A stretch of 39,711 nucleotides of DNA. Source: Syntrophobacter sp. SbD2 (GTDB taxonomy: Bacteria > Desulfobacterota > Binatia > UBA9968). A program made the translations under genes and the position numbers. Below, one piece after another: positions 4,328 to 32,070 of this stretch (positions within the stretch are counted from its first letter, which is position 1; each line of letters starts with the position of its first letter). A model generated the notes under the pieces. That model was not told where the DNA came from, ran no database searches, and saw only the letters and a program-made list of their open reading frames with translations. The stretch is taken from contig CAMDBU010000040.1 in NCBI GenBank assembly GCA_945889495.1, forward strand, positions 1-39,711. The letters are read 5' to 3'.

Positions 4328-5034
4328 CTACGACGCTGTGATCGCCAGAATTTCTCGACACAGTATAGTTGAATGGCGGGATCAGGAATTGCGTGTAGCG
4401 GCGTCGACGGAACGAGAACGTGGCAAGAACGTTTTCCAACGCCAATCACGCCAATTCCTTCATGGAGGTACCGAGACCACTTCGACGAGTCTTTCGCAAT
4501 TCGCTCTGCAGTCCGTATCGGGAACGCAACGAACGACTCTTGTGCAAAGCCGAGATTGGAGATTGCCTGTCGAAACGCTTCGTCAACTCTTGTAAGTTTC
4601 AACTCAACTGCGACCAAGCGTTCATGAAGCGGCATCCAGCCGTTTAGCTTTTGGAGCCTTCCATTTTTGTTTTTTAGGACAAAGCGGTCGGTAATTAAAC
4701 GTTCAACTTCAATAACGACTACTTCTTCTGGAATAGCGTGTTCGAAGTTCTTCTTTAGGCGATCTAGCGAAACGGATTTCGTCGTTTCGACCTCTGGAAC
4801 ACTCAAGAGTAACGCTGCTCGCGTTATCGACGAGATAGACTTAGTCTGTTTTAGTCGACGTCGGTAATCCACACGCTTACTGTTAAGTGTCACGCCCACA
4901 AGGTCGCAGATGCCCCAAGGCGTTATGAACTCCCGCCGTGTCTGGAGGCCGGATAATTTCATCCAGCGAACCACGCTCGGCGTCATTTCCGACTCGCGTT
5001 TGAACATAATTATCACCCCGCCGACAATGCCCAC
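4324..5034 (-). CDS. PD-(D/E)XK-like nuclease family protein
   Basis: A protein of up to 236 residues with a core that fits the PD-(D/E)XK nuclease fold: E35, then GICDLVGV with D44, then LVAVELKL with E144 and K146, followed by a helix containing Q156 and a final strand FVAFP. This D-(x)n-ExK plus Q-helix arrangement is typical of restriction-endonuclease-like folds. The GTG at 5034 has AAGGTG upstream; an in-frame ATG at 5007, preceded by GGGGTG, is an equally good start. It faces the FRG pair convergently. The fold call rests on motif reading only. A DNA-cleaving effector in a defence island is the leading interpretation. Confidence 0.65.
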   Translation of the reverse strand: MGIVGGVIIMFKRESEMTPSVVRWMKLSGLQTRREFITPWGICDLVGVTLNSKRVDYRRRLKQTKSISSITRAALLLSVPEVETTKSVSLDRLKKNFEHAIPEEVVVIEVERLITDRFVLKNKNGRLQKLNGWMPLHERLVAVELKLTRVDEAFRQAISNLGFAQESFVAFPIRTAERIAKDSSKWSRYLHEGIGVIGVGKRSCHVLVPSTPLHAIPDPAIQLYCVEKFWRSQRRS

Positions 5035-5216
5035 CCTTTCACCTTATTGCGCTATCAGCATTTAATCTAACTATCAATTGCCCTAACGAACAAGCATGTG
5101 AGGTCGATGCGATGTGGACGGAATCGGGTGGTACAGATCATGAAATAGTCAGGGGGCAAAAGAATTGAGGGCGAACCTTGAATTGTTCGCTCTCTCGCTC
5201 AAGGGATAGCAAGTGT

Positions 5217-5366
5217 CAGGTATTGGTAGTGGTTCAGTTAGCCCGAGATCTCTCACTTCGTTCGAGATGACAACTGGACTTTTCTGCTGTCATTTCGAGC
5301 GTAGCGAGAAATCTTTCTTCGCATGATGACGTGCGCCGACCCATACTGAACCACTACCCAGGTATT
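5217..5366. mobile_element. MITE-like non-autonomous element with 8-bp target duplication
   Basis: The 134-bp element spans 5225-5358. Its ends are perfect 14-bp inverted repeats, GGTAGTGGTTCAGT at 5225-5238 and the complement at 5345-5358. It is flanked on both sides by CAGGTATT (5217-5224 and 5359-5366), a perfect 8-bp direct repeat that reads as a target-site duplication. The interior carries two inverted copies of a 27-bp unit (5246-5272 and 5288-5314) also found elsewhere in this window. No coding potential, so it would need a transposase in trans. Confidence 0.8.
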
Positions 5367-5462
5367 CATTCTTCACTTGTTATCAAAATTCTTCGATGAT
5401 CGCCTCGAACCGCCGACCGGTGGGCGGTTGACGGTGAGGCTAATCGGCGACATAAAGGCTTT

Positions 5463-5762
5463 ATGACCACTCTGAAGATTGCCTCTCCGAAGAAAAATCT
5501 CGGCCGGTGGTTGGCAGCTGCCGCCCGTGGCGAGGACAGCGGCGTCGTTTTTGGCGCCGATATCGTCGCTTTGCGCAAGGTGAGCGTCGAGTCAACGGAC
5601 TACGCCCAACGCGAGTACGGAGCGCTCCCCGAACAGGTTGTAGCTCTCGAAAGAGCAATCGAGAAGCGTTATCGAAGCTTGCGGTGGGGCAAAACCTTCC
5701 CCGACGACGATTCGACAATTCAGGAATCTTTTGGAGTAAGCTGCCGACCACCGATCCTTTGA
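5463..5762 (+). CDS. Phd/YefM-like antitoxin, apparently orphan
   Basis: A 99-residue small protein beginning LKIASPKKNLGRWLAAA, which resembles the N-terminal DNA-binding part of prevent-host-death type antitoxins; the tail is charged. AAGG lies 4 nt before the ATG. No partner toxin follows: the next gene, 45 nt downstream, is a class II aldolase. It lies about 100 bp beyond the MITE-like element, so loss of a partner by rearrangement is possible. The family call is tentative, made from N-terminal resemblance and size. Confidence 0.5.
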   Translation: MTTLKIASPKKNLGRWLAAAARGEDSGVVFGADIVALRKVSVESTDYAQREYGALPEQVVALERAIEKRYRSLRWGKTFPDDDSTIQESFGVSCRPPIL

Positions 5763-5807
5763 TCGCCCGGAGACTGCGGGAGTTTTCGACTGATCCCTAC
5801 ACATACC

Positions 5808-6596
5808 ATGACCGACATTACCGCCAGTCCCTACCCACCTTTTGACGGAGTCGAGCCACACGGCACTGTTCGCTCGATCGCGGACGAGCGGGCGCATCGC
5901 AAGCGGATTTGCGCGCTTGGGTACCGCATCTTCGGCGCGATGCGGTGGGGGATGCTCGGCGACGGCCATATTTCGGCCCGCGATCCGGAGTTCAGCGATC
6001 ACTTCTGGTTGCTCGACTGGGGTATTTCTTTTAGCGCGGCGACGGTTGGTAAGTTGGTGCTGGTCGGGCCCGGTGGCGAAGTGAAGGATGGCGACGGCAA
6101 CGCCACCGGTACGGTCAACACGGCCGGCTACAACATCCACTATCCGCTGCTCGCGGCCCGTGCCGACGTCGTCAGCGCGGCGCACACGCACACCGCTTTC
6201 GGTACGCCATGGTCGGCCAATGTCGAGCCGTTCCGCGCGCTCAGTCAGGAGGCCTGTGCCTTCGTCTTCGACCAGGCGCTGTTCGACGATGAAGAGGTGG
6301 AAGTGCTGTCGATCGATGGCGGCAAGCGCATCGCCGCGGCGCTGGGCGACAAGAAGTTGTGCATCCTGCGCAACCACGGTCTGCTCACGGTGGGCCGCTC
6401 TGTGGAGTCAGCGATCGGCTGGTTCGTGATGGCCGAACGGGTAGCCGAAGTCCACGTCAAAGCGCCGCTCGGGCGAGCGATTTCGGATGAAGCCGCGGCG
6501 CTTGCCGCATCGACCCTCGCCGCCGATGCGGTGGGCTGGCGAATGTTCCAGTGGCTGCAACGCTCGCTGGTTCCGGATCCATCAGTTGTTGACTGA
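5808..6596 (+). CDS. Class II aldolase/adducin family protein
   Basis: A 262-residue protein of the class II aldolase/adducin family, the usual length. The zinc-binding pattern is visible: H126 and H128 in AAHTHTAFGTPWS and H190 in LRNHGLLTVG. GDGHISARDPE near residues 51-61 matches the conserved glycine and substrate-phosphate region of the family. Members act as sugar-phosphate aldolases, epimerases, dehydratases or decarboxylases, so the reaction cannot be named. There is no signal peptide; cytoplasmic. It stands alone between the antitoxin-like gene and the molybdenum hydroxylase genes. The start ATG has no strong ribosome site. Confidence 0.85.
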   Translation: MTDITASPYPPFDGVEPHGTVRSIADERAHRKRICALGYRIFGAMRWGMLGDGHISARDPEFSDHFWLLDWGISFSAATVGKLVLVGPGGEVKDGDGNATGTVNTAGYNIHYPLLAARADVVSAAHTHTAFGTPWSANVEPFRALSQEACAFVFDQALFDDEEVEVLSIDGGKRIAAALGDKKLCILRNHGLLTVGRSVESAIGWFVMAERVAEVHVKAPLGRAISDEAAALAASTLAADAVGWRMFQWLQRSLVPDPSVVD

Positions 6597-12039: not shown

Positions 12040-12065
12040 TTTGTGTCGTTAGAAGATTCGGAATG

Positions 12066-12190
12066 TCTCCCGCAAAGGCGCAAAGGCGCTAAGGGACGGG
12101 CTTCGCCCGTCATTGGGAAAGGGAAGATTTCTCCCTTCGGTCGAAATGACAAGTCTTCCGAACTTTGCGCCTTCGCGCCTTTGCGGGAGA
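12066..12190. repeat. CAAAGGCG-box inverted repeat with nested 27-bp unit
   Basis: Left arm contains TCTCCCGCAAAGGCGC (from 12066). Right arm contains its near complement, ending TTTGCGGGAGA at 12190. Between them lie a small hairpin of GACGGGC and GCCCGTC and a copy of a 27-bp unit at 12125-12151 that occurs in exact inverse at 31941-31967. It fills the gap between the interrupted substrate-binding gene and the next hydrolase. No coding potential. Confidence 0.75.
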
Positions 12191-12299
12191 AAATCCGACT
12201 CCGATAATCTGTTCGCCACTGCGCGCCAAGCGGCGGCGGTCTCGCATTGACAGGGCGCGATTGGATCGGCTACGGTCGGCGCCGTGGAGGAAATCGATT

Positions 12300-13100
12300 A
12301 TGGCGGAACATTCTAACTCAACCTTCGCGGGCCATGCGGATTTACCGGGCGTGCGCTTATGGTACAGCGATAGCGGCGGCAGCGGCGTGCCATTAATCTT
12401 GCTGCACGCCAACACCGGCAATGCCGACGGCTGGCAGTACAACATTCCCGGCTTCGCCGCGGCGGGCTACCGGGCCATCGCTTTTGACCGGCGCGGGTTT
12501 GGCCGCAGCATGGCGAATCCGCAAACCGGGCCGCAGCCCGGCACCATCGCCGACGATCTGCATGAGCTGGTGGAACATTTGAAACTCGAGCGCTTTCATC
12601 TGGTTGGCGTCGCCGGCGGCGGCTTCGCGGCCTACGATTACGTGCTCTGGCATCCCGAGCGGCTGCGCAGCTTGGTGGTCGCCGCCAGCGGCGGCGCGAT
12701 TGTCGATGAGGAGTTGGCGAAGATTCGCGAGCGCACGGCGCTGCCCAATTTTCGCAGCTGGCCGCCGGAATTTCGCGAAGTCAGTATGGGTTACATGGCG
12801 ACTAATCCGGAAGGTCTCAAACTCTGGTTGGCGATCCACGATAATTCCATGCAGCAGGGCATGGCGGCTCAGCCGCAGCGCCAGACGATTACCTTCGCCA
12901 AGCTGGCGACCATCCGCGTGCCGACATTGCTGATGCCCGGCGACCAAGACTTGCAAGCACCGCCCTGGGTGATGCGCTGGCAGCTGGCGCATATCAAACA
13001 CGCCAAGTTTGTCGTGCTGCCCGAAGCGTCGCACTCGATCAATTGGGAGCAGCCGGAAACTTTCAACCGCGAGGTGCTGGCGTTTGTTGGTGGCTATTAG
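12300..13100 (+). CDS. Alpha/beta hydrolase with Ala at the nucleophile position
   Basis: A 266-residue alpha/beta-hydrolase fold protein. The oxyanion region LLHANTGNA is at 34-42. The elbow reads GVAGGG at 103-108, so position 105, where Ser, Cys or Asp acts as nucleophile, is Ala. The acid (D215/D217 in MPGDQDLQ) and His245 (ASHSINW) are kept. The ATG at 12300 has GGAGG 9 nt upstream; the longer frame back to 12165 runs through repeat DNA and is rejected. There is no signal peptide, unlike its paralogue at 15727. It may be a non-hydrolytic enzyme or a ligand-binding protein. The fold is certain, the activity open. Confidence 0.88.
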   Translation: MAEHSNSTFAGHADLPGVRLWYSDSGGSGVPLILLHANTGNADGWQYNIPGFAAAGYRAIAFDRRGFGRSMANPQTGPQPGTIADDLHELVEHLKLERFHLVGVAGGGFAAYDYVLWHPERLRSLVVAASGGAIVDEELAKIRERTALPNFRSWPPEFREVSMGYMATNPEGLKLWLAIHDNSMQQGMAAQPQRQTITFAKLATIRVPTLLMPGDQDLQAPPWVMRWQLAHIKHAKFVVLPEASHSINWEQPETFNREVLAFVGGY

Positions 13101-15726: not shown

Positions 15727-16587
15727 ATGATTCATGCAAGTCGCGTTATGGTTGGGCTAGTTGCGTCTTTGTGTTTCGCAACGGCATTGGCGGCGCAGAC
15801 CGCGCCGCGCTTTGCTGGACATGTGGAGCTGCCGGGTCTTCGGCTATGGTACAGCGACAGCGGGGGCAGTGGTGTGCCGCTGGTGTTGCTCCACGCCAAC
15901 ACCGGCAATGCCGACAGCTGGCAGTACAACGTTCCGGGCTTCGTCGATGCGGGTTATCGGGTTATCACATTTGACCGGCGCGGCTGGGGACGCAGCATGG
16001 CGAACCCCGACAGCGGCGCGCAGCCCGGCACCATCGCCGACGATCTCCATGGCCTGGTGGAATATTTGAAACTCGATCGCTTCCATCTGGTCGGCGTCGC
16101 CGGCGGCGGCTTCGCCGCCTACGATTACGTGCTTTGGCATCCCGAGCGGCTGCGCAGTTTAGTGATCGCCGCTAGCGGCGGCGCCATCGTCGACGAGGAA
16201 ATGCGCAAGCTCCGCGACCAGACCGCGCTACCGGGATTTTCCAAGTGGCCGCCGGAGTTTCGCGAAGTGAGCATGGGCTACATGGCGACCAACCCGGAGG
16301 GTTTGAAACGCTGGCTCGAGATTCACCACAACTCGCGTCAGCCGGGCGCGCCGGTGCAGCTCGAGCGCACCAAGATCACCTACGGAAAACTCGCGACCAT
16401 TCGCGTGCCGACGCTGCTCATGCCCGGCGACCAAGATCTGCAAACGCCGCCTTGGGTCATGCGCCGTCAGCTCGCTCATATCCCCGGCGCCAAGTTTGTC
16501 GTCCTGCCTGAAGCCGCCCACTCGATCAATTGGGAGCAGCCGGAGGGGTTCAATCGCCATGTGCTGGAGTTTATTCGCGGGCACTAG
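15727..16587 (+). CDS. Secreted alpha/beta hydrolase paralogue with Ala nucleophile position
   Basis: A 286-residue paralogue of the protein at 12300, with most residues shared, plus an N-terminal signal peptide (about 1-23, ending LAAQT). The elbow again reads GVAGGG, with Ala125 at the nucleophile position. D235/D237 and His265 are retained. Keeping the same substitution in two diverged copies argues against a sequencing error. GGAGG at 15716-15720 lies 6 nt before the ATG. Being exported, it could act on the same periplasmic compounds that the surrounding receptors bind. Its 3' part is repeated downstream of the toxin-antitoxin pair, at 17494-17832. Confidence 0.88.
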   Translation: MIHASRVMVGLVASLCFATALAAQTAPRFAGHVELPGLRLWYSDSGGSGVPLVLLHANTGNADSWQYNVPGFVDAGYRVITFDRRGWGRSMANPDSGAQPGTIADDLHGLVEYLKLDRFHLVGVAGGGFAAYDYVLWHPERLRSLVIAASGGAIVDEEMRKLRDQTALPGFSKWPPEFREVSMGYMATNPEGLKRWLEIHHNSRQPGAPVQLERTKITYGKLATIRVPTLLMPGDQDLQTPPWVMRRQLAHIPGAKFVVLPEAAHSINWEQPEGFNRHVLEFIRGH

Positions 16588-16728: not shown

Positions 16729-17028
16729 ATGAAGCAGCTATCGTTGACTGAAGCGCGAGCTCAACTCAGCACACTGGTTGCGGAAGTCGACAAGGGGCAG
16801 GGGCCCATTGCGATTGCCCAGCGATCCAAGGTCAGGGCGGTTCTCGTCGATCCAGACTGGCACGGCCGAGTAGTAGAAGAACTCGCCCACTATCGAAAAC
16901 TCGTAAAGCCACCTCCGTTAAAGCTCCAGGGCAGTATGACTTTGGCTGGAGATTTGGACGAAGCGTTGGCCGAGATCAAGAAGGAACGCGAACGCTCTTT
17001 TGATCGGCTCATCACCGGGCTAAAGTGA
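16729..17028 (+). CDS. Phd/YefM-family antitoxin
   Basis: A 99-residue antitoxin. The N-terminus KQLSLTEARAQLSTLVAEV is the classic Phd/YefM DNA-binding fold, followed by IAIAQRSKVRAVLVDPDW. The charged C-terminus (about 70-99, EIKKERERSF) would wrap the toxin. It neutralises the PIN toxin encoded next, whose GTG start overlaps this stop by 4 nt (GTGA), so translation is coupled. AGGAG precedes the ATG, and a TGTACA double site upstream is a likely autoregulatory operator. The pair sits between two copies of hydrolase 3' sequence. Confidence 0.9.
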   Translation: MKQLSLTEARAQLSTLVAEVDKGQGPIAIAQRSKVRAVLVDPDWHGRVVEELAHYRKLVKPPPLKLQGSMTLAGDLDEALAEIKKERERSFDRLITGLK

Positions 17029-17426
17029 TTTACGTCACCGATACTCACCCGCTAGTCTTCTGGTCGTCGAATCGCAGGGCGCGACTAGGAAAACGAGCCC
17101 GCCGTATCTTTCAAGAGACCGAGCAGGGCAAGCATTCGATCATCGTCCCAATTACGGTCCTGGAAGAAATGAACAGGTTGGTAGAACGGAACGTGATTCA
17201 TCTGGATGTATCGTTTCGTCGCTGGGCCGAGGAACTCGAACGTTCGCCAAACTATCAAGTCCAGTCATTCACGTTGGAAGTTTTAGTTGAGTTGGTAGCG
17301 CTGGCCGCGATCCGTGACCCGGCAGACCGAGCCATCGTAGCGACAGCCCGGCATCTACGCTCCCCCCTGATCACGGCGGATGAAATCATTCAAAATGGAA
17401 ATTGGGTTGATACGGTTTGGGACTGA
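17025..17426 (+). CDS. vapC: PIN-domain toxin (VapC type)
   Basis: A 133-residue PIN-domain ribonuclease toxin starting at GTG 17025. The acidic active-site set is visible: D6 (VTDTHPL), E47 or E48 (VLEEMN), D98 and D101 (RDPADRAI) and D119 (LITADE). VapC toxins cut specific tRNAs or rRNA sites with a divalent metal. The length is normal and no catalytic residue is missing, so it should be active. It is held in check by the upstream Phd/YefM-like antitoxin. The symbol denotes the family only. Confidence 0.88.
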   Translation: MIYVTDTHPLVFWSSNRRARLGKRARRIFQETEQGKHSIIVPITVLEEMNRLVERNVIHLDVSFRRWAEELERSPNYQVQSFTLEVLVELVALAAIRDPADRAIVATARHLRSPLITADEIIQNGNWVDTVWD

Positions 17427-17493
17427 CTGCGCGTCGCGGCTAGCAGTCTAGCCTCGTGAGACTACTTTGGTGGCGTCTGGAACCGCTGTCTCG

Positions 17494-17832
17494 AGTGGCT
17501 GCCGGAGTTTTGCGAAAGTGGACTGTCTAGCGACCAACCCGGAGGGTTTGAAACGCTGGCTCGAAATTCACCACAATTCGCGCCAGCCGGGCGCGCCGGT
17601 GCAGCTCGAGCGCACCAAGATCACCTACGAAAAACTCGCGACCATTCGCGTGCTGACGCTGTTGATGCCCGGCGACCAGGATTTGCAAACCCCGCCTTGG
17701 GTTATGCGCCGCCAACTGGCCCATATCCCCGGCGCGAAGTTCGTCATCCTGCCCGAAGCGGCGCACTCGATCAATTGGGAACAACCGGCGGCGTTCAATC
17801 GCCAAGTGTTGGAGTTTATCCGTGGGCACTAA
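17494..17832 (+). pseudogene. 3' fragment of a third alpha/beta hydrolase copy
   Basis: Corresponds to about the last 113 codons of the hydrolase at 15727, from the WPPEF region to the C-terminal EFIRGH, with roughly 90% nucleotide match over the parts compared. The first 60 bases are degraded: the conserved GYMATNP is reduced to a diverged stretch before ATNPEGLKRWLEIHH. The 5' two thirds, including the elbow region, are absent, and the toxin-antitoxin pair lies where they would be. The open frame begins at GTG 17467 but no functional start is expected. Confidence 0.85.
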
Positions 17833-26212: not shown

Positions 26213-27277
26213 TCACGCGCCTTTGCGGCCGGTTTCTTTTAGTAGCTTGTCCCACCGTTCCAGTTCTTTTTCGTATTTATCCAGGGTGTATTCGCGTTCG
26301 GGGCGCCATTTTTTGAAGCCGTAATTTTTCCCGGCGTTGCCGTAGTGGAATTTTTCTAAAATTCCTTGGCCTTCGGCGCCGAGTAGGTAGTCGGCGAGCA
26401 GCAGGGCGGCGTGGGGGTGGGGCGGTTGGGCGGCGATGGCGACGCCGCCGACGTTGGTTGGTACGACATCCATGGCGACCCATTCCACCGGCGCGCCCTT
26501 TTGCTGGGCGACGATCACATGGTTGCGAAAGATCGCTGCGCCGGCGATCAGCTCACCCGACGCGATGAGGTCAAGTAACGCCGGCGGGATGATCGTGTGC
26601 AGGGCGATGTCTTGGCCTCTGAGTCGCTTCAAAAATTCCGGGCCGCGGGTCTTCAACATGCCGGCGATGGATTTATTGCTGGTGTCGTCCAGGGTGAGGC
26701 CCATTCGCCCCTTGAGCGCGGGATGGAGCAGGCCGTCGTAGTTTTTTGGCACGGCGTCCTTCGGCAATAAGTTCTTGTTGTAGCCGAAACCGATGTAGGA
26801 CTCGCGCGCGGTGCCCCAGAAATATAACCCGCGCTCGCCTTTGACCTTGGCGTCGTCCGGATAATTGGCGAACGCCGGTGAGTGGTAGGGGCGCAGCAGA
26901 AAAGCTTCGCGCTGAAACATCAAATTGGCTTCGGTGGTTTCGATGGTGTCGACGATGGCTTTTCGGGCCTTGCTTTCCTCGACCATGCGGTTGGTGATCT
27001 CGCCGCCGTTGGTGCGGTAGGCTTCGATCTTGACGCCGGCATATTTGCTCTCGAAGGCTTTGATCATCGCCTTGTAGGAATCGCCGGCCAGCGACGTGTA
27101 CCAGGTCGCTTTGCCTTCGGTCTTGGCGCCGGCGTAGAGCACCGCTTCGCGGTCCTTGCCGTTGTAGGTGACCAGCTCGGAGATGGTCATTGCAGCATTG
27201 GGCTTACGCGCTTGGGCGCGCAGCTCACCGGGCAACAGGACGGACAGGACCGATAGGACCAAGAGTAAGAGCGGCAT
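26213..27277 (-). CDS. Fe3+-type solute-binding protein, tandem copy 4
   Basis: A 354-residue periplasmic binding protein, last of four tandem paralogues. Signal peptide to about residue 22 (GELRAQA), then ATWYTSLAGDSYKAMIKAF, FWGTARESYIGFGYNKNL, NYDGLLHPALKGRMGLTL, VPTNVGGVAIAAQPPHPHAA and a KYEKELERWDKLLKE tail. The preferred start is ATG 27277 with GGAG 10 nt upstream. Closest in sequence to the copy at 27341. The shared RESYxGFxYNK and PPHPHxA blocks suggest one ligand class for all four. No transport membrane subunit follows. Confidence 0.88.
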   Translation of the reverse strand: MPLLLLVLSVLSVLLPGELRAQARKPNAAMTISELVTYNGKDREAVLYAGAKTEGKATWYTSLAGDSYKAMIKAFESKYAGVKIEAYRTNGGEITNRMVEESKARKAIVDTIETTEANLMFQREAFLLRPYHSPAFANYPDDAKVKGERGLYFWGTARESYIGFGYNKNLLPKDAVPKNYDGLLHPALKGRMGLTLDDTSNKSIAGMLKTRGPEFLKRLRGQDIALHTIIPPALLDLIASGELIAGAAIFRNHVIVAQQKGAPVEWVAMDVVPTNVGGVAIAAQPPHPHAALLLADYLLGAEGQGILEKFHYGNAGKNYGFKKWRPEREYTLDKYEKELERWDKLLKETGRKGA

Positions 27278-27340
27278 GTTGGACAATCTCCTTGAGGCAG
27301 TTTTAGCGCGGCGCTTGCGGACTCTCAAGCCGAGAGCGAT

Positions 27341-28414
27341 CTACTGGGAGCGGCGGCTGATCTCTTTCAATTGCTTTTCCCAGCGCTCCAAGTCCTTTTC
27401 GTATTTGTCGGTGGCGATGCCATGGTCGGGGCGCCATTTCTTAAAACCTAGATTTCTTGCCGCGCTGCCGTACTCATATTTGTCCAACACCGCTTGGCCT
27501 TCGGGACCGAGCAGATAATCGGCCAGCAGCAGGGCGCCATGGGGATGGGGCGGTTGGACGGCGATGGCGGCGCCGCCGACGTTGGTCGGCACGATGTCCA
27601 TGGGCAGCCACTCCACCGGTGCGCCTTTGCTAATCGCGTTCAAAGTGTGGTTGCGAAATATTCCCGGCGACGCCAGCACTTCGCCGGAAGCGATTAATTC
27701 CAACAACGCCGGCGGGATGATCGTGTGCAGGGCGATTTCCTGGACCTTCAATTTTTTCACGAACTCTGGTCCTTTGACGCGCAGCATGGCGCCGATCACT
27801 TTGTAAGCCGGATCGCTCACCGACACGCCCATGCGGCCCTTGAGCTCGGGATGGAACAGGCCGTCGTAGTTTTTCGGCACGGCGTTTTTCGACAGCAATT
27901 TCTTGTTGTAGGCGAAACCGATATAGGACTCCCGAGCGATGCCCCAGAAATATAGACCGCGCTCGCTTTTCTCCTTGGCGTCTTCCGGATAGCTGGCGAA
28001 GTGCGGCGAATGATAGGGACGCAGGAGAAAAGCGTCGCGCATGAACATCAAGTTGCCCTCGGTGGTCTCGACGGCGTCGACGATGTAGCGCTTGGCCTTG
28101 GACTCCTCCATCATGCGCACGGTCATGTCGGAACCGGAGACCCGGTAAGCCTCGAGCTTGACGCCGGGATACTTGGCATCAAAAGCTTTCGCCATGCCCT
28201 TGTAGGAGTCGCCGGAGAGCGAGGTGTACCAGGTGACTTTGCCTTCGGCTTTGGCGCCGGCATAGAGCACCGCTTCACGGTCCTTGCCGTTGTAGGTGAC
28301 TAGCTCGGAGATCGTCATTGCAGCATTGGGCTTGCGCGCTTGGGCTTGGAGGTGACTGGGGAATAGGACGTATGGGAGGGATAGGACCGATAGGACTAAT
28401 ATTAGGAAATGCAT
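27341..28414 (-). CDS. Fe3+-type solute-binding protein, tandem copy 3
   Basis: A 357-residue paralogue. Signal peptide to about residue 24 (SHLQAQA), mature start RKPNAAMTISELVTYNGKDR, almost the same as copy 4. Other family blocks are VTWYTSLSGDSYKGMAKAF, RESYIGFAYNKKL and IIPPALLELIASGEVLASPG. ATG 28414 with GGAG 9 nt upstream is the start; the frame runs on to 28528 only by reading the end of the next gene out of frame. It is 63 nt upstream of copy 4 and 23 nt downstream of copy 2, so one operon. Confidence 0.88.
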   Translation of the reverse strand: MHFLILVLSVLSLPYVLFPSHLQAQARKPNAAMTISELVTYNGKDREAVLYAGAKAEGKVTWYTSLSGDSYKGMAKAFDAKYPGVKLEAYRVSGSDMTVRMMEESKAKRYIVDAVETTEGNLMFMRDAFLLRPYHSPHFASYPEDAKEKSERGLYFWGIARESYIGFAYNKKLLSKNAVPKNYDGLFHPELKGRMGVSVSDPAYKVIGAMLRVKGPEFVKKLKVQEIALHTIIPPALLELIASGEVLASPGIFRNHTLNAISKGAPVEWLPMDIVPTNVGGAAIAVQPPHPHGALLLADYLLGPEGQAVLDKYEYGSAARNLGFKKWRPDHGIATDKYEKDLERWEKQLKEISRRSQ

Positions 28415-28437
28415 CGCGAAACTCTCCTCTGGTGCGT

Positions 28438-29493
28438 TTAGCGCTGGCTGATCTCGCGGGCGAGCTTGCCCCACTTGATGCTGTCTTTTTCGTAGTCGTC
28501 CACCGAGCGGCCCTGATCTTGATACCATCTTTTGAAGCCATAGTCCGAAGCCGGGTGGCCGTAGTTAAACTTATCGAGCACCTTGGGCGCGTCGTTGAGC
28601 AGGAAATCGATCAGCAACAGCGCGCCATGGGGATGGGGCGCGTGGGCCGCCAGCGCCACTGAGCCGGCGTTGGTCGGCACCAACTCCATGGGCACCCAGC
28701 CGACGGCCGAACCGCGTTCCGCCGAGACCATGGCGTGGTTGCGAAAGATTTGCGGCGACCCAGCGATTTCGCCGGAGGCGATCAAGTCGGCCAACGCCGC
28801 GCTGCTGACGGTGTAGGCTTTGATCTCCTGGGCTTTGAGTTTTTTGACGAACCCTTCGCCTTTGACTTTGACCATGGCACCGATGGCGCGCATGGCCGAT
28901 TCGTTGAGCGTGATGCTGAGCTTGCCTTTGAGTTCGGGGTGTAACAGGCCGTCGAAATTTTTCGGCACCGCGCCGGCGGCGATTTGCGTCTTGTTGTAGC
29001 CGAAGCCGAGATAGGATTCGCGGATTGTCGTCCACTGGCTCCAGCCCTTGTCGGCGTGCTCGATGGCGTCGTCGGGATATTTGCTCAAGTGCGGCGAGAA
29101 ATAAGGCTGGATTAAATTATTCGCCCGCGCCAGCACTAACGAGTCTTCGGAAGTTTCCAAAGCGTCAGCCGCCGGCCGGCGCGCTTTGGCTTCCTCCAAC
29201 ATACGCACGATGAAATCGCTGCCGCCGGCGCGGTAGACGTCGAGCCGGATGGCGGGATATTTCGCCTCGAAGGCGCGTACAATCGCTTTGTAGGAGTCGC
29301 CGGCAAGGGAGGTGTACCAGGTCAGTTTGCCTTCGCTCTTGGCGCCGGCGTAGAGCATGGCTTCGCGGTCTTTGGCGGTGTAGGCGGCGAGTTCGGCGAT
29401 GGTGGAGGGCTTGCGCGGTTGGGCGGCGAGTCTCTGAGGGAATAGGAGGGATGGGACTGACAGGAATAATAGGACGTATAATCGGCAATGCAT
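28438..29493 (-). CDS. Fe3+-type solute-binding protein, tandem copy 2
   Basis: A 351-residue paralogue. Signal peptide to about residue 24 (RLAAQP), then PSTIAELAAYTAKDREAMLY, LTWYTSLAGDSYKAIVRAF, IRESYLGFGYNKTQ, NFDGLLHPELKGKLSITLNE and YTVSSAALADLIASGEIAGS. It shares the TVSSAAL and ITLNES blocks with copy 1 but not with copies 3 and 4, where IIPPALL stands, so the array consists of two older pairs. Start ATG 29493; the frame upstream to 29607 is out-of-frame sequence of copy 1. It is 23 nt from each neighbour. Confidence 0.88.
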   Translation of the reverse strand: MHCRLYVLLFLSVPSLLFPQRLAAQPRKPSTIAELAAYTAKDREAMLYAGAKSEGKLTWYTSLAGDSYKAIVRAFEAKYPAIRLDVYRAGGSDFIVRMLEEAKARRPAADALETSEDSLVLARANNLIQPYFSPHLSKYPDDAIEHADKGWSQWTTIRESYLGFGYNKTQIAAGAVPKNFDGLLHPELKGKLSITLNESAMRAIGAMVKVKGEGFVKKLKAQEIKAYTVSSAALADLIASGEIAGSPQIFRNHAMVSAERGSAVGWVPMELVPTNAGSVALAAHAPHPHGALLLIDFLLNDAPKVLDKFNYGHPASDYGFKRWYQDQGRSVDDYEKDSIKWGKLAREISQR

Positions 29494-29516
29494 CGCGTCG
29501 ATCTCCTTGGGTGTGA

Positions 29517-30566
29517 TCACCGCTGGGTGATTTCCTTGGCGAGCTTTTCCCACTTCTCGCTGTCTTTTTCGAATTGCTCGAAGGAGCGGCCGAAGCCGGG
29601 GTACCAACGTTTGAACGGTAGCGTGTTGGACGGGTGGCCGTATTGAAATTTCTCCATGACCTTACGCGCTTCGGCACCGAGCATGAAGTCGACAAACAGC
29701 GATGCCGCGTGCGGGTGGGGCGGCTGAGCGCTGAGGCTCATGCTGCCGGAGTTGGTCGGCGCCAACTCCATGGGCACCCAACTTGCCGGCGAGCCGCGCT
29801 CGGCAGACACCATGGCGTGGTTTCGATAAATATGAAACGACGCGCCGAGTTCGCCTGACGCCATGAGATCCACCAGCGCGGCGCTACTGACGGTATAGAT
29901 GCGGATCTGCTGGGCTTTGAGCTTTTTCACGAAGGCTTCGCCTTTGATCTTGATCATGGCGCCGATCATGCGCGCCGAACTTTCGTTGAGCGTGATGCCC
30001 AATTTGCCTTTGAGCCGCGGATCGAGCAGGCCGTCGAAACCTTTGGGCACGGCACTGGCCGGCACTTGATCCTTGTTGAAACCGAAGCCCAGGTAGGACT
30101 CGCGAAAAATCGTCCAGAAAGTCAGCCCGGCATCGGCTTTTTCCTTGGCGTCGCTGGGATAGCTAGCGAGGATCGGTGAGTTGTAGGGCCGAGTGAGGCC
30201 GTAGACCTTCGACACCATGGTGAAGTCGTAGGTGGTCTCCAGCGCGTCCATGGACGGCCGGCGAGCTTTAGTCTCTTCCGACATGCGCGCGACCAAATCG
30301 CTGCCGCCAGCGCGAAACGCTTCGACGCGCACGCCGGGATATTTGGTCTCAAAAGCCCGCGACAAGGCTTTGTACGAATCGCCGGCTAAGGACGTGTACC
30401 AAGTGATCACGCCTTCGCCCTTGGCGCCGGCGTAGAGTAGCTGCTCGCGGTCGGCGCCCATGTAGGTGGAGATTTCCGATACAGTGGCAGGTTTGCGCGG
30501 CTGGGCCGCTGCCTGATCGGGCAGCAGCGCTGTGACGAGTGTTAGGGCAATGATCGCTTGCAACAT
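29517..30566 (-). CDS. Fe3+-type solute-binding protein, tandem copy 1 (operon head)
   Basis: A 349-residue paralogue and first gene of the four-gene run. Signal peptide to about residue 21 (DQAAAQP), then ITWYTSLAGDSYKALSRAF, FRESYLGFGFNKDQ, GFDGLLDPRLKGKLGITLNE, VPMELAPTNSGSMSLSAQ and a C-terminal FEKDSEKWEKLAKEITQR. ATG 30566 has GGAG 9 nt upstream. Upstream lies 198 nt (30567-30764) with no recognisable gene, where the promoter should be. Length and fold match iron-type binding proteins; the real ligand is unknown. Confidence 0.88.
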   Translation of the reverse strand: MLQAIIALTLVTALLPDQAAAQPRKPATVSEISTYMGADREQLLYAGAKGEGVITWYTSLAGDSYKALSRAFETKYPGVRVEAFRAGGSDLVARMSEETKARRPSMDALETTYDFTMVSKVYGLTRPYNSPILASYPSDAKEKADAGLTFWTIFRESYLGFGFNKDQVPASAVPKGFDGLLDPRLKGKLGITLNESSARMIGAMIKIKGEAFVKKLKAQQIRIYTVSSAALVDLMASGELGASFHIYRNHAMVSAERGSPASWVPMELAPTNSGSMSLSAQPPHPHAASLFVDFMLGAEARKVMEKFQYGHPSNTLPFKRWYPGFGRSFEQFEKDSEKWEKLAKEITQR

Positions 30567-31859: not shown

Positions 31860-31892
31860 CTGGTTTCTCCTTGATTCGCTATTGCTAAGAAT

Positions 31893-32053
31893 TCTCGGAT
31901 TCGGAAATGACTCCCGCAAAGGCGCAAAGTTCGGATTGGCTGTCATTTCGACCGAAGGGAGAAATCTGTCTTAGATCCCTCGCATTCGCTCGGGATGACG
32001 GGCATGCCCGTCACCTTTGCGTCTTTGCGCCTTTGCGAGAAAAATTCCGAGAC
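31893..32053. repeat. CAAAGGCG-box inverted repeat with nested units
   Basis: Outer words CTCGGATTCGGAAATG (left) and AAATTCCGAG (right) enclose CTCCCGCAAAGGCGCAAAG and its inverse CTTTGCGCCTTTGCGAGA. Inside, 31941-31967 is an exact 27-bp inverse of 12125-12151, and 31973-32000 is a variant of the same unit. It fills most of the gap upstream of the Bug receptor, 31860-32070. Confidence 0.78.
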
Positions 32054-32070
32054 TTAAGTTGCGACCACGC

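Follow-up and report, generated by a model that had tools for sequence, protein, structure and literature searches.

A 134-bp MITE in Syntrophobacter sp. SbD2, very probably mobilised in trans by an IS1-type transposase of cargo-carrying transposons

Described systems closest to the element

Classical IS1 elements are under about 1.2 kb long, carry no passenger genes, end in GGnnnTG and duplicate 8-9 bp of their target. Longer IS1 elements are grouped in ISfinder as the "ISMhu11 group", which may, we presume, be the same as the transposon group described here. The window, i.e. the whole stretch of 39,711 nucleotides analysed from Syntrophobacter sp. SbD2 (contig CAMDBU010000040.1), contains a 134-bp element whose terminal repeats also bound much longer transposons (the partner transposons). 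The partner transposons resemble the IS1 family in that their transposase scores over the cut-off of PF03400, their ends start with GG and fit GGnnnTG, and their duplication is of 8 bp. They differ from it in two respects, and possibly in a third: i) they are 2.0-6.7 kb long (median 3.2 kb), vs under about 1.2 kb; ii) they have a second conserved small basic gene and a variable cargo; and iii) as a group they tend to insert at a fixed distance from -35 boxes.

The 134-bp element and its relatives share with IS-derived bacterial MITEs a short, non-coding body, perfect inverted ends common with an autonomous element, a target duplication and many copies. Unlike those MITEs, one set of ends here surrounds at least three interior repeat types, and sites just upstream of promoters are preferred. 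Literature searches among open-licence papers gave no match for the name ISMhu11 or for the terminal 14-mer, unrelated papers as the best 25 of 219 matches for the letters of the interior repeat, and nothing recognised as on point for bacterial MITEs or for IS1 with passengers, cargo or defence.

Two further systems are similar in part. In the sections of PMC3129680 that concern them, transporter ISs consist of IS ends, a transposase and unrelated passenger genes. The partner transposons share this composition, but have a second conserved gene (69/71) and a cargo that is often defence- or toxin-antitoxin-like. REP/RAYT palindromes, as outlined in PMC3733652, are dispersed, paired inverted palindromic units. 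The window interior likewise consists of dispersed, paired inverted palindromic units; unlike REP/RAYT (a GTAG/CGTC-tagged palindrome with a tyrosine transposase), the window element has defined inverted ends and an 8-bp duplication, both of which speak against a REP/RAYT origin for it.

Anatomy, copies and insertion sites of the MITE family

By its anatomy the window element is an ordinary MITE (Table 1): it is short, encodes no transposase, is bounded by inverted ends and a target duplication, occurs in multiple copies and has ends common to an autonomous element. The 8-bp duplication and the perfect 14-bp inverted ends around 134 bp were all present as the earlier note described, and base 15 is unlike between the two ends, thus the terminal repeat is exactly 14 bp. 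As for the interior, which had been described as two inverted copies of a 27-bp unit found elsewhere, the units are indeed inverted and recur in the window at 12104-12151 (-) and 31939-31972 (+), but they agree at only 22/27 positions (inverted, manual count) and are relatives rather than exact copies.

Table 1. Coordinates of the window element and loci of the related transposons
Feature	Position or locus	Strand	Basis or remark
Left copy of 8-bp target duplication, CAGGTATT	5217-5224	no strand	read directly from the sequence
134-bp MITE (non-autonomous)	5225-5358	no strand	ends, duplication, genome copies, ORF list
Left terminal inverted repeat, GGTAGTGGTTCAGT	5225-5238	+	same 14 bases start both ends of the L191 transposon
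Interior palindromic repeat unit, first inverted copy, GAGATCTCTCACTTCGTTCGAGATGACA	5245-5272	-	occurs elsewhere in the genome without these ends
Interior palindromic repeat unit, second inverted copy, TGTCATTTCGAGCGTAGCGAGAAATCT	5288-5314	+	occurs elsewhere in the genome without these ends
Right terminal inverted repeat, exact reverse complement of 5225-5238	5345-5358	-	read directly
Right copy of 8-bp target duplication, CAGGTATT	5359-5366	no strand	read directly
IS1-type cargo transposons, 2-7 kb	L191, L202, L212, L214, L221, L280-L291, L292-L371		KGG protein and defence-like cargo

Of the ORFs of at least 80 aa, none overlaps the element, which sits between ORFs of annotated size, and its strand folds at -30.2 kcal/mol vs a shuffle mean of -15.1 kcal/mol (z -5.7; 0/200 shuffles as good). 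A strong fold and such a position would also suit a fixed, domesticated regulatory hairpin kept for its function. This we hold to be very improbable: Rfam gave no match in window positions 4500-6500 at E up to 1, and the copies have different interiors and occupy unrelated positions.

Several other repeats were observed in the window. At 12053-12201 and 31886-32068, solo 27-bp units adjoin a second intergenic repeat (CTCCCGCAAAGGCGCAAAG type) or lie between its inverted copies, so that two dispersed repeats occur together. Four neighbouring related ORFs at 26213-30566 (-) (repeat families D1 and D3-D6) resemble a tandem expansion and look by eye like binding-protein genes. Related hydrolase-like ORFs (repeat families D2 and D7) lie at 12165-13100, 15727-16587 and 17467-17832, the third being a fragment, and between hydrolase-like ORFs, at 16729-17426, two short ORFs look by eye like an antitoxin-toxin pair.

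The window's own genome (G000; 5.64 Mb in 239 contigs, 95.6% complete) has seven full-length copies of the element including that of the window (L005-L011), plus one truncated copy and many matches to the interior only; in total, 47 matches were obtained at E up to 10, with 40/65 candidates scored. Six of the seven full-length copies keep the duplication at 5/8 positions or more, and in two it is 8/8, namely the window copy and L009 (CGGAAGTC); L008 has no recognisable duplication. The insertion had been judged recent, which holds in a relative sense: the duplication and ends are intact, but identity between the window copy and the other six full-length copies of the genome is just 85-92%.

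The exact terminal 14-mer was found four times in the own genome vs none for its backwards-read control. With up to 1 mismatch, the 25 genomes of the family had 175 sites (in 17/25 genomes) vs 24 for the backwards control, both summed. Thus the ends are not due to chance; at up to 2 mismatches the signal in the own genome is lost among chance matches (22 vs 57 for the backwards control). Among 150 of the 175 family sites (up to 1 mismatch), 44 of the 45 facing pairs span 114-153 bp; the single pair of 1,392 bp was rejected as an autonomous element, as it consists of two separate MITEs. A further 60 of these 150 sites have no mate; among those inspected, 15 show a MITE interior (one site counted twice) and four do not. 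Nine further unmated sites are MITEs with a diverged second end.

Terminal repeat pairs of 90-260 bp from the own genome and relatives were then compared (n=71, omitting loci L201-L230 and L279 upwards, pairs with more than 4 summed end mismatches, and elements 60 bases or less from the end of a stretch). The flanking 8 bases match at 7-8/8 positions in 53 pairs, at 5-6 in eight and at 4 or fewer in 10, while with right flanks dealt anew a 7-8/8 match occurred in 1.3% (self-pairings included). Moreover the left duplications are all distinct (71/71). One of these loci (L256) is the same site as L120 and was dropped before the target counts, which leaves 70 MITEs; no flank similarity was found among them. 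The MITE-like reading of the earlier note, and with it the multiple copies bearing different 8-bp duplications that it named as a check, is therefore supported by copies at different sites (seven full-length ones in the own genome, and all left duplications distinct across genome and relatives) and by complete transposons with the same ends.

The interiors of the 71 pairs are of several motif types: the GTAGGGGC-type in 37, the TCAT-type of the window in 19, the CACCCCAG-type in nine and others in six. Thus one set of ends encloses unrelated hairpin repeats. Conversely, 23 interior-only matches of the own genome were inspected, and 20 of them have no trace of the ends beyond control; L014 and L012 retain remnants of both ends (with 3 and 4 mismatches per end, respectively), and L016 retains one of the right end (1 mismatch). 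That the dispersed 27-bp repeat can be carried by a transposable unit, as had been proposed, is true of this element, but with end remnants in only 3/23 interior-only matches and other palindromes inside the same ends, the repeat looks like a passenger which is not generally spread by the MITE. The dispersed repeat is thus mostly found without the MITE, which most likely picked it up. Long C-rich CCCCTCACCCCAGCCC repeats were observed inside the same ends in a different family of the class (L161-L176 of G050, G057 and G061).

For 20 copies (six of the own genome and 14 of G010), the two flanks were joined and searched for in seven relatives, and the 10 copies with usable matches were aligned. 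In eight of these 10 (20 queried) the junction is crossed without the element: L134, L122, L131, L124, L132, L118 and L112 of G010, and L009 of G000. The clearest empty site is that of L122, where the junction has a single GGCGCTTT in G017 and G015 and a single CGCGCTTT in G005 and G002; all other empty-site alignments are diverged at the site. For L131, L134 and L124 the alignments in G017 are good apart from divergence at the duplication, and weaker ones were found for L118 (G015), L132 (G017), L112 (G015 and G005) and L009 (G001, with a 6-base gap), those of L132 and L112 being weak. The site of L120 is occupied in G017 too. For the window copy itself, no orthologous junction was present among the matches listed, and its upstream flank did not align in six loci of relatives. 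Hence an empty site in a relative, which the earlier note regarded as decisive, is available for other copies of the element family (8 of the 20 queried) but not for the window copy. At the site of the own-genome copy L004, G001 has a remnant of another MITE with a GTAGGGGC-type interior (L278:520-625, G001:C142), which may stem either from repeated insertion at one place or from an exchange of interior.

These data also bear on the reading that the window holds a pair of dispersed REP-like hairpin repeats merely resembling a transposon, with ends and duplication arising by chance. The interior units are dispersed palindromes, and the 20 interior-only matches without ends are what this reading would lead one to expect; on the other hand, the ends and 8-bp duplications recur at independent sites, around unrelated interiors and without flank similarity among the 70 MITEs, and the element-free L122 sites with one copy of the duplication contradict it. 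We find it hardly credible.

Partner transposons, their transposase and their cargo

A search for exact 14-mer sites across the class (148 genomes, of which 24 had a match) led to L191 in G014, a genome of the same family as the window organism. L191:648-4215 is a transposon of 3,568 bp with ends GGTAGTGGTTCAGTTTGAATT and the duplication GAAAAAGG on both sides, and the first 14 bases of both its ends are identical to the window terminal repeat. Its transposase (285 aa) matches PF03400 (IS1) at 26.8 bits over 41 residues, above the curated cut-off of 24.1, while against the NCBIfam IS1 model it reaches 63 bits, below the cut-off of 100. The predicted structure has an RNase H fold (model pLDDT 78), and its best PDB match is the ISCth4 transposase (E 2.9e-6), followed by retroviral integrases, Mos1 and TnsB. 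Three residues, D78, D149 and E213, are invariant in 14/14 transposases (D78 is at 90% or more in 34) and are putative catalytic residues; E213 falls in a low-confidence segment of the model.

Homologues of this transposase (E 1e-5) are present in 43/148 genomes of the class. At the same threshold none was found in the window's genome or in the MITE-rich G001 and G010, and the MITE-bearing G015 has transposase fragments only. Thus an autonomous IS with the same ends, the other check named by the earlier note, exists as L191 in the same family and at 61/80 further loci of the same end consensus, but not in the own genome, from which we infer mobilisation in trans.

Very probably the window element is a MITE that an IS1-type DDE transposase has moved in trans: the pairing of MITE and transposase rests on complete transposons that agree with the MITEs in their ends, in duplication length and in the favoured landing place, the last being indirect evidence. 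By this mechanism, the IS1-type transposase would bind the 14-18 bp ends of the MITE, cut with an 8-bp stagger and insert it, while the interior hairpin repeats would be passenger DNA. The enzyme that acted on the window copy, presumably of IS1 type, may have come from a transposon since lost from, or missing from, the window's assembly.

Duplications of 8 bp and, in several of them, GG ends occur also in the IS1595, IS256, IS6, ISL3 and IS66 families, which would be compatible with mobilisation by another DDE family of this kind. From the searches for IS1595 and IS256 we consider that improbable. IS1595 (PF12762) was rejected as the partner: it is absent from the own genome, and its eight matches in 6/25 family genomes lack such ends (up to 3 mismatches, in the examined loci). 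IS256 (PF00872) is not supported either: partial matches were found in 3/25 genomes (G017, G012 and G009) and none in G000, G001, G010 or G015. An end-like 14-mer with 2 mismatches does lie beside the IS256 match of G012, with no facing mate in the locus; of the four IS256 places, three have no facing pair of ends and the other locus has no end at all. Moreover L191 was found by its ends alone and not by its transposase; the other transposons were gathered by transposase and are therefore no test of this alternative.

A scan of genome_contigs gave at least 545 relatives of the IS1-type transposase, under titles naming many phyla, of which 80 were kept. Both ends and a duplication were found at 61 of these 80 loci and the duplication is 8/8 at 59, a rate to be read as 59/80 and not 59/61 because selection required 7-8 duplication bases to match, or 5 where the ends were near-perfect. 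The 19 loci dropped had no matching second end or duplication, some being cut by contig ends. Together with 10 transposons from the G-numbered genomes (among them L280, with a 6/8 duplication), this gave 71 transposons of 2,035-6,694 bp (median 3,215).

Of these, 69/71 encode a small basic KGG-motif protein, upstream of the transposase in 69/69 and on the same strand in 67/69; outside the elements, the KGG profile had one match in 447 kb of flanking sequence. One plasmid record annotates the KGG protein as "histone H1" (profile E 2e-26), and records of the plasmid collection annotate the transposase homologues as "IS1 family transposase".

Cargo candidates were present in 58 elements, and the sample consisted of the 30 longest frames, not a random choice. 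Pfam found HTH_3 in 18 of the 30, of which 15 also have Peptidase_M78 (two of the 15 under the Pfam cut-off); the others have P63C (four), N6 methylase (two), AAA_21 (two), STAND-like AAA (two) or nothing (two). A PADLOC defence model was matched at E 1e-19 or better by 22/30 frames, the best models being PD-Lambda-2_B (12), RmrA (six), HEC-04 (two), type IIG restriction-methylase (one) and mad2/methylase (one); of the remainder, two had weak matches and six none. In the transposons of the G-numbered genomes, 17/30 proteins scanned (one a KGG protein) had no Pfam family, and of 10 proteins run against PADLOC one had a strong match (L284), two weak and seven none. By resemblance, the cargo thus often appears to be defence- or toxin-antitoxin-like.

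Target preference for promoters and its meaning

The targets were read outwards from the duplication at each insertion, with TTGACA allowed up to 1 mismatch. TTGACA lies 7-8 bases from the duplication in 24/139 MITE flanks (22/70 elements; expected 1.1) and in 24/141 transposon flanks (22/71 elements; expected 1.25), i.e., 7-8 bp separate the end of the duplication from a -35 box downstream of it, whose promoter is directed away from the element. This offset was first seen in the MITEs and held when tested on the transposons, thus the transposon figure is the independent one. Like the MITE set, the transposon set showed no flank similarity.

A -10-like hexamer follows 16-18 bases on in 9/24 MITE boxes and 12/24 transposon boxes, vs 7/53 and 5/57 respectively for TTGACA-like hexamers at other offsets in the same flanks, and vs 64/1585 and 201/2891 elsewhere in the loci (Fisher 4e-7 and 2e-8; coding DNA is part of this last control). 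TTG at that offset is found on one side in 31 MITEs, on both in two and on neither in 36, the corresponding numbers for transposons being 38, three and 30. As TTG is usually one-sided, the target looks like one promoter and not a palindrome. In the transposons the promoter side is that toward which the transposase reads in 16 cases, the opposite in four and both in two (P 0.012, tentative). About two thirds of the insertions (48/70 for MITEs) have no -35 box at offset 7-8. The window copy is among them, with no such box on either side, therefore the target preference is no evidence for the window copy.

Taken together, we think it rather probable that the MITE is the visible sign of a group of IS1-type cargo transposons that spans phyla, organised as inverted end, KGG protein, cargo rich in phage-defence-like modules, transposase and inverted end, which find their targets via sigma-70 promoters. 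In this reading they insert at a set position a short way upstream of the -35 box, with a stagger of 8 bp, and thereby spare the host promoter. Recognition of the promoter DNA, or of a sigma factor or RNA polymerase bound to it, would fall to the transposase, possibly together with the KGG protein. Insertion would then stop short of the main RNA polymerase contacts, on their upstream side, and leave the host promoter intact, and such promoter-proximal landing is probably a way of finding harmless sites. We know of no bacterial insertion sequence that exemplifies promoter-guided insertion, and a search on promoter or TTGACA targeting among open-licence papers found no example.

The likely mobiliser is thereby identified for a MITE family that had been seen only as a repeat, along with an unusual target preference common to both. 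One set of ends around different hairpin repeats bears on the kinship of dispersed bacterial palindromes and MITEs, and, judging by the cargo, small defence and toxin-antitoxin modules may travel by this mobile route. The element leads, moreover, to a widespread transposon group whose insertion sites are often at a set distance from promoters; if true, promoter-guided insertion would be a simple, testable mechanism by which a bacterial transposon finds harmless sites.
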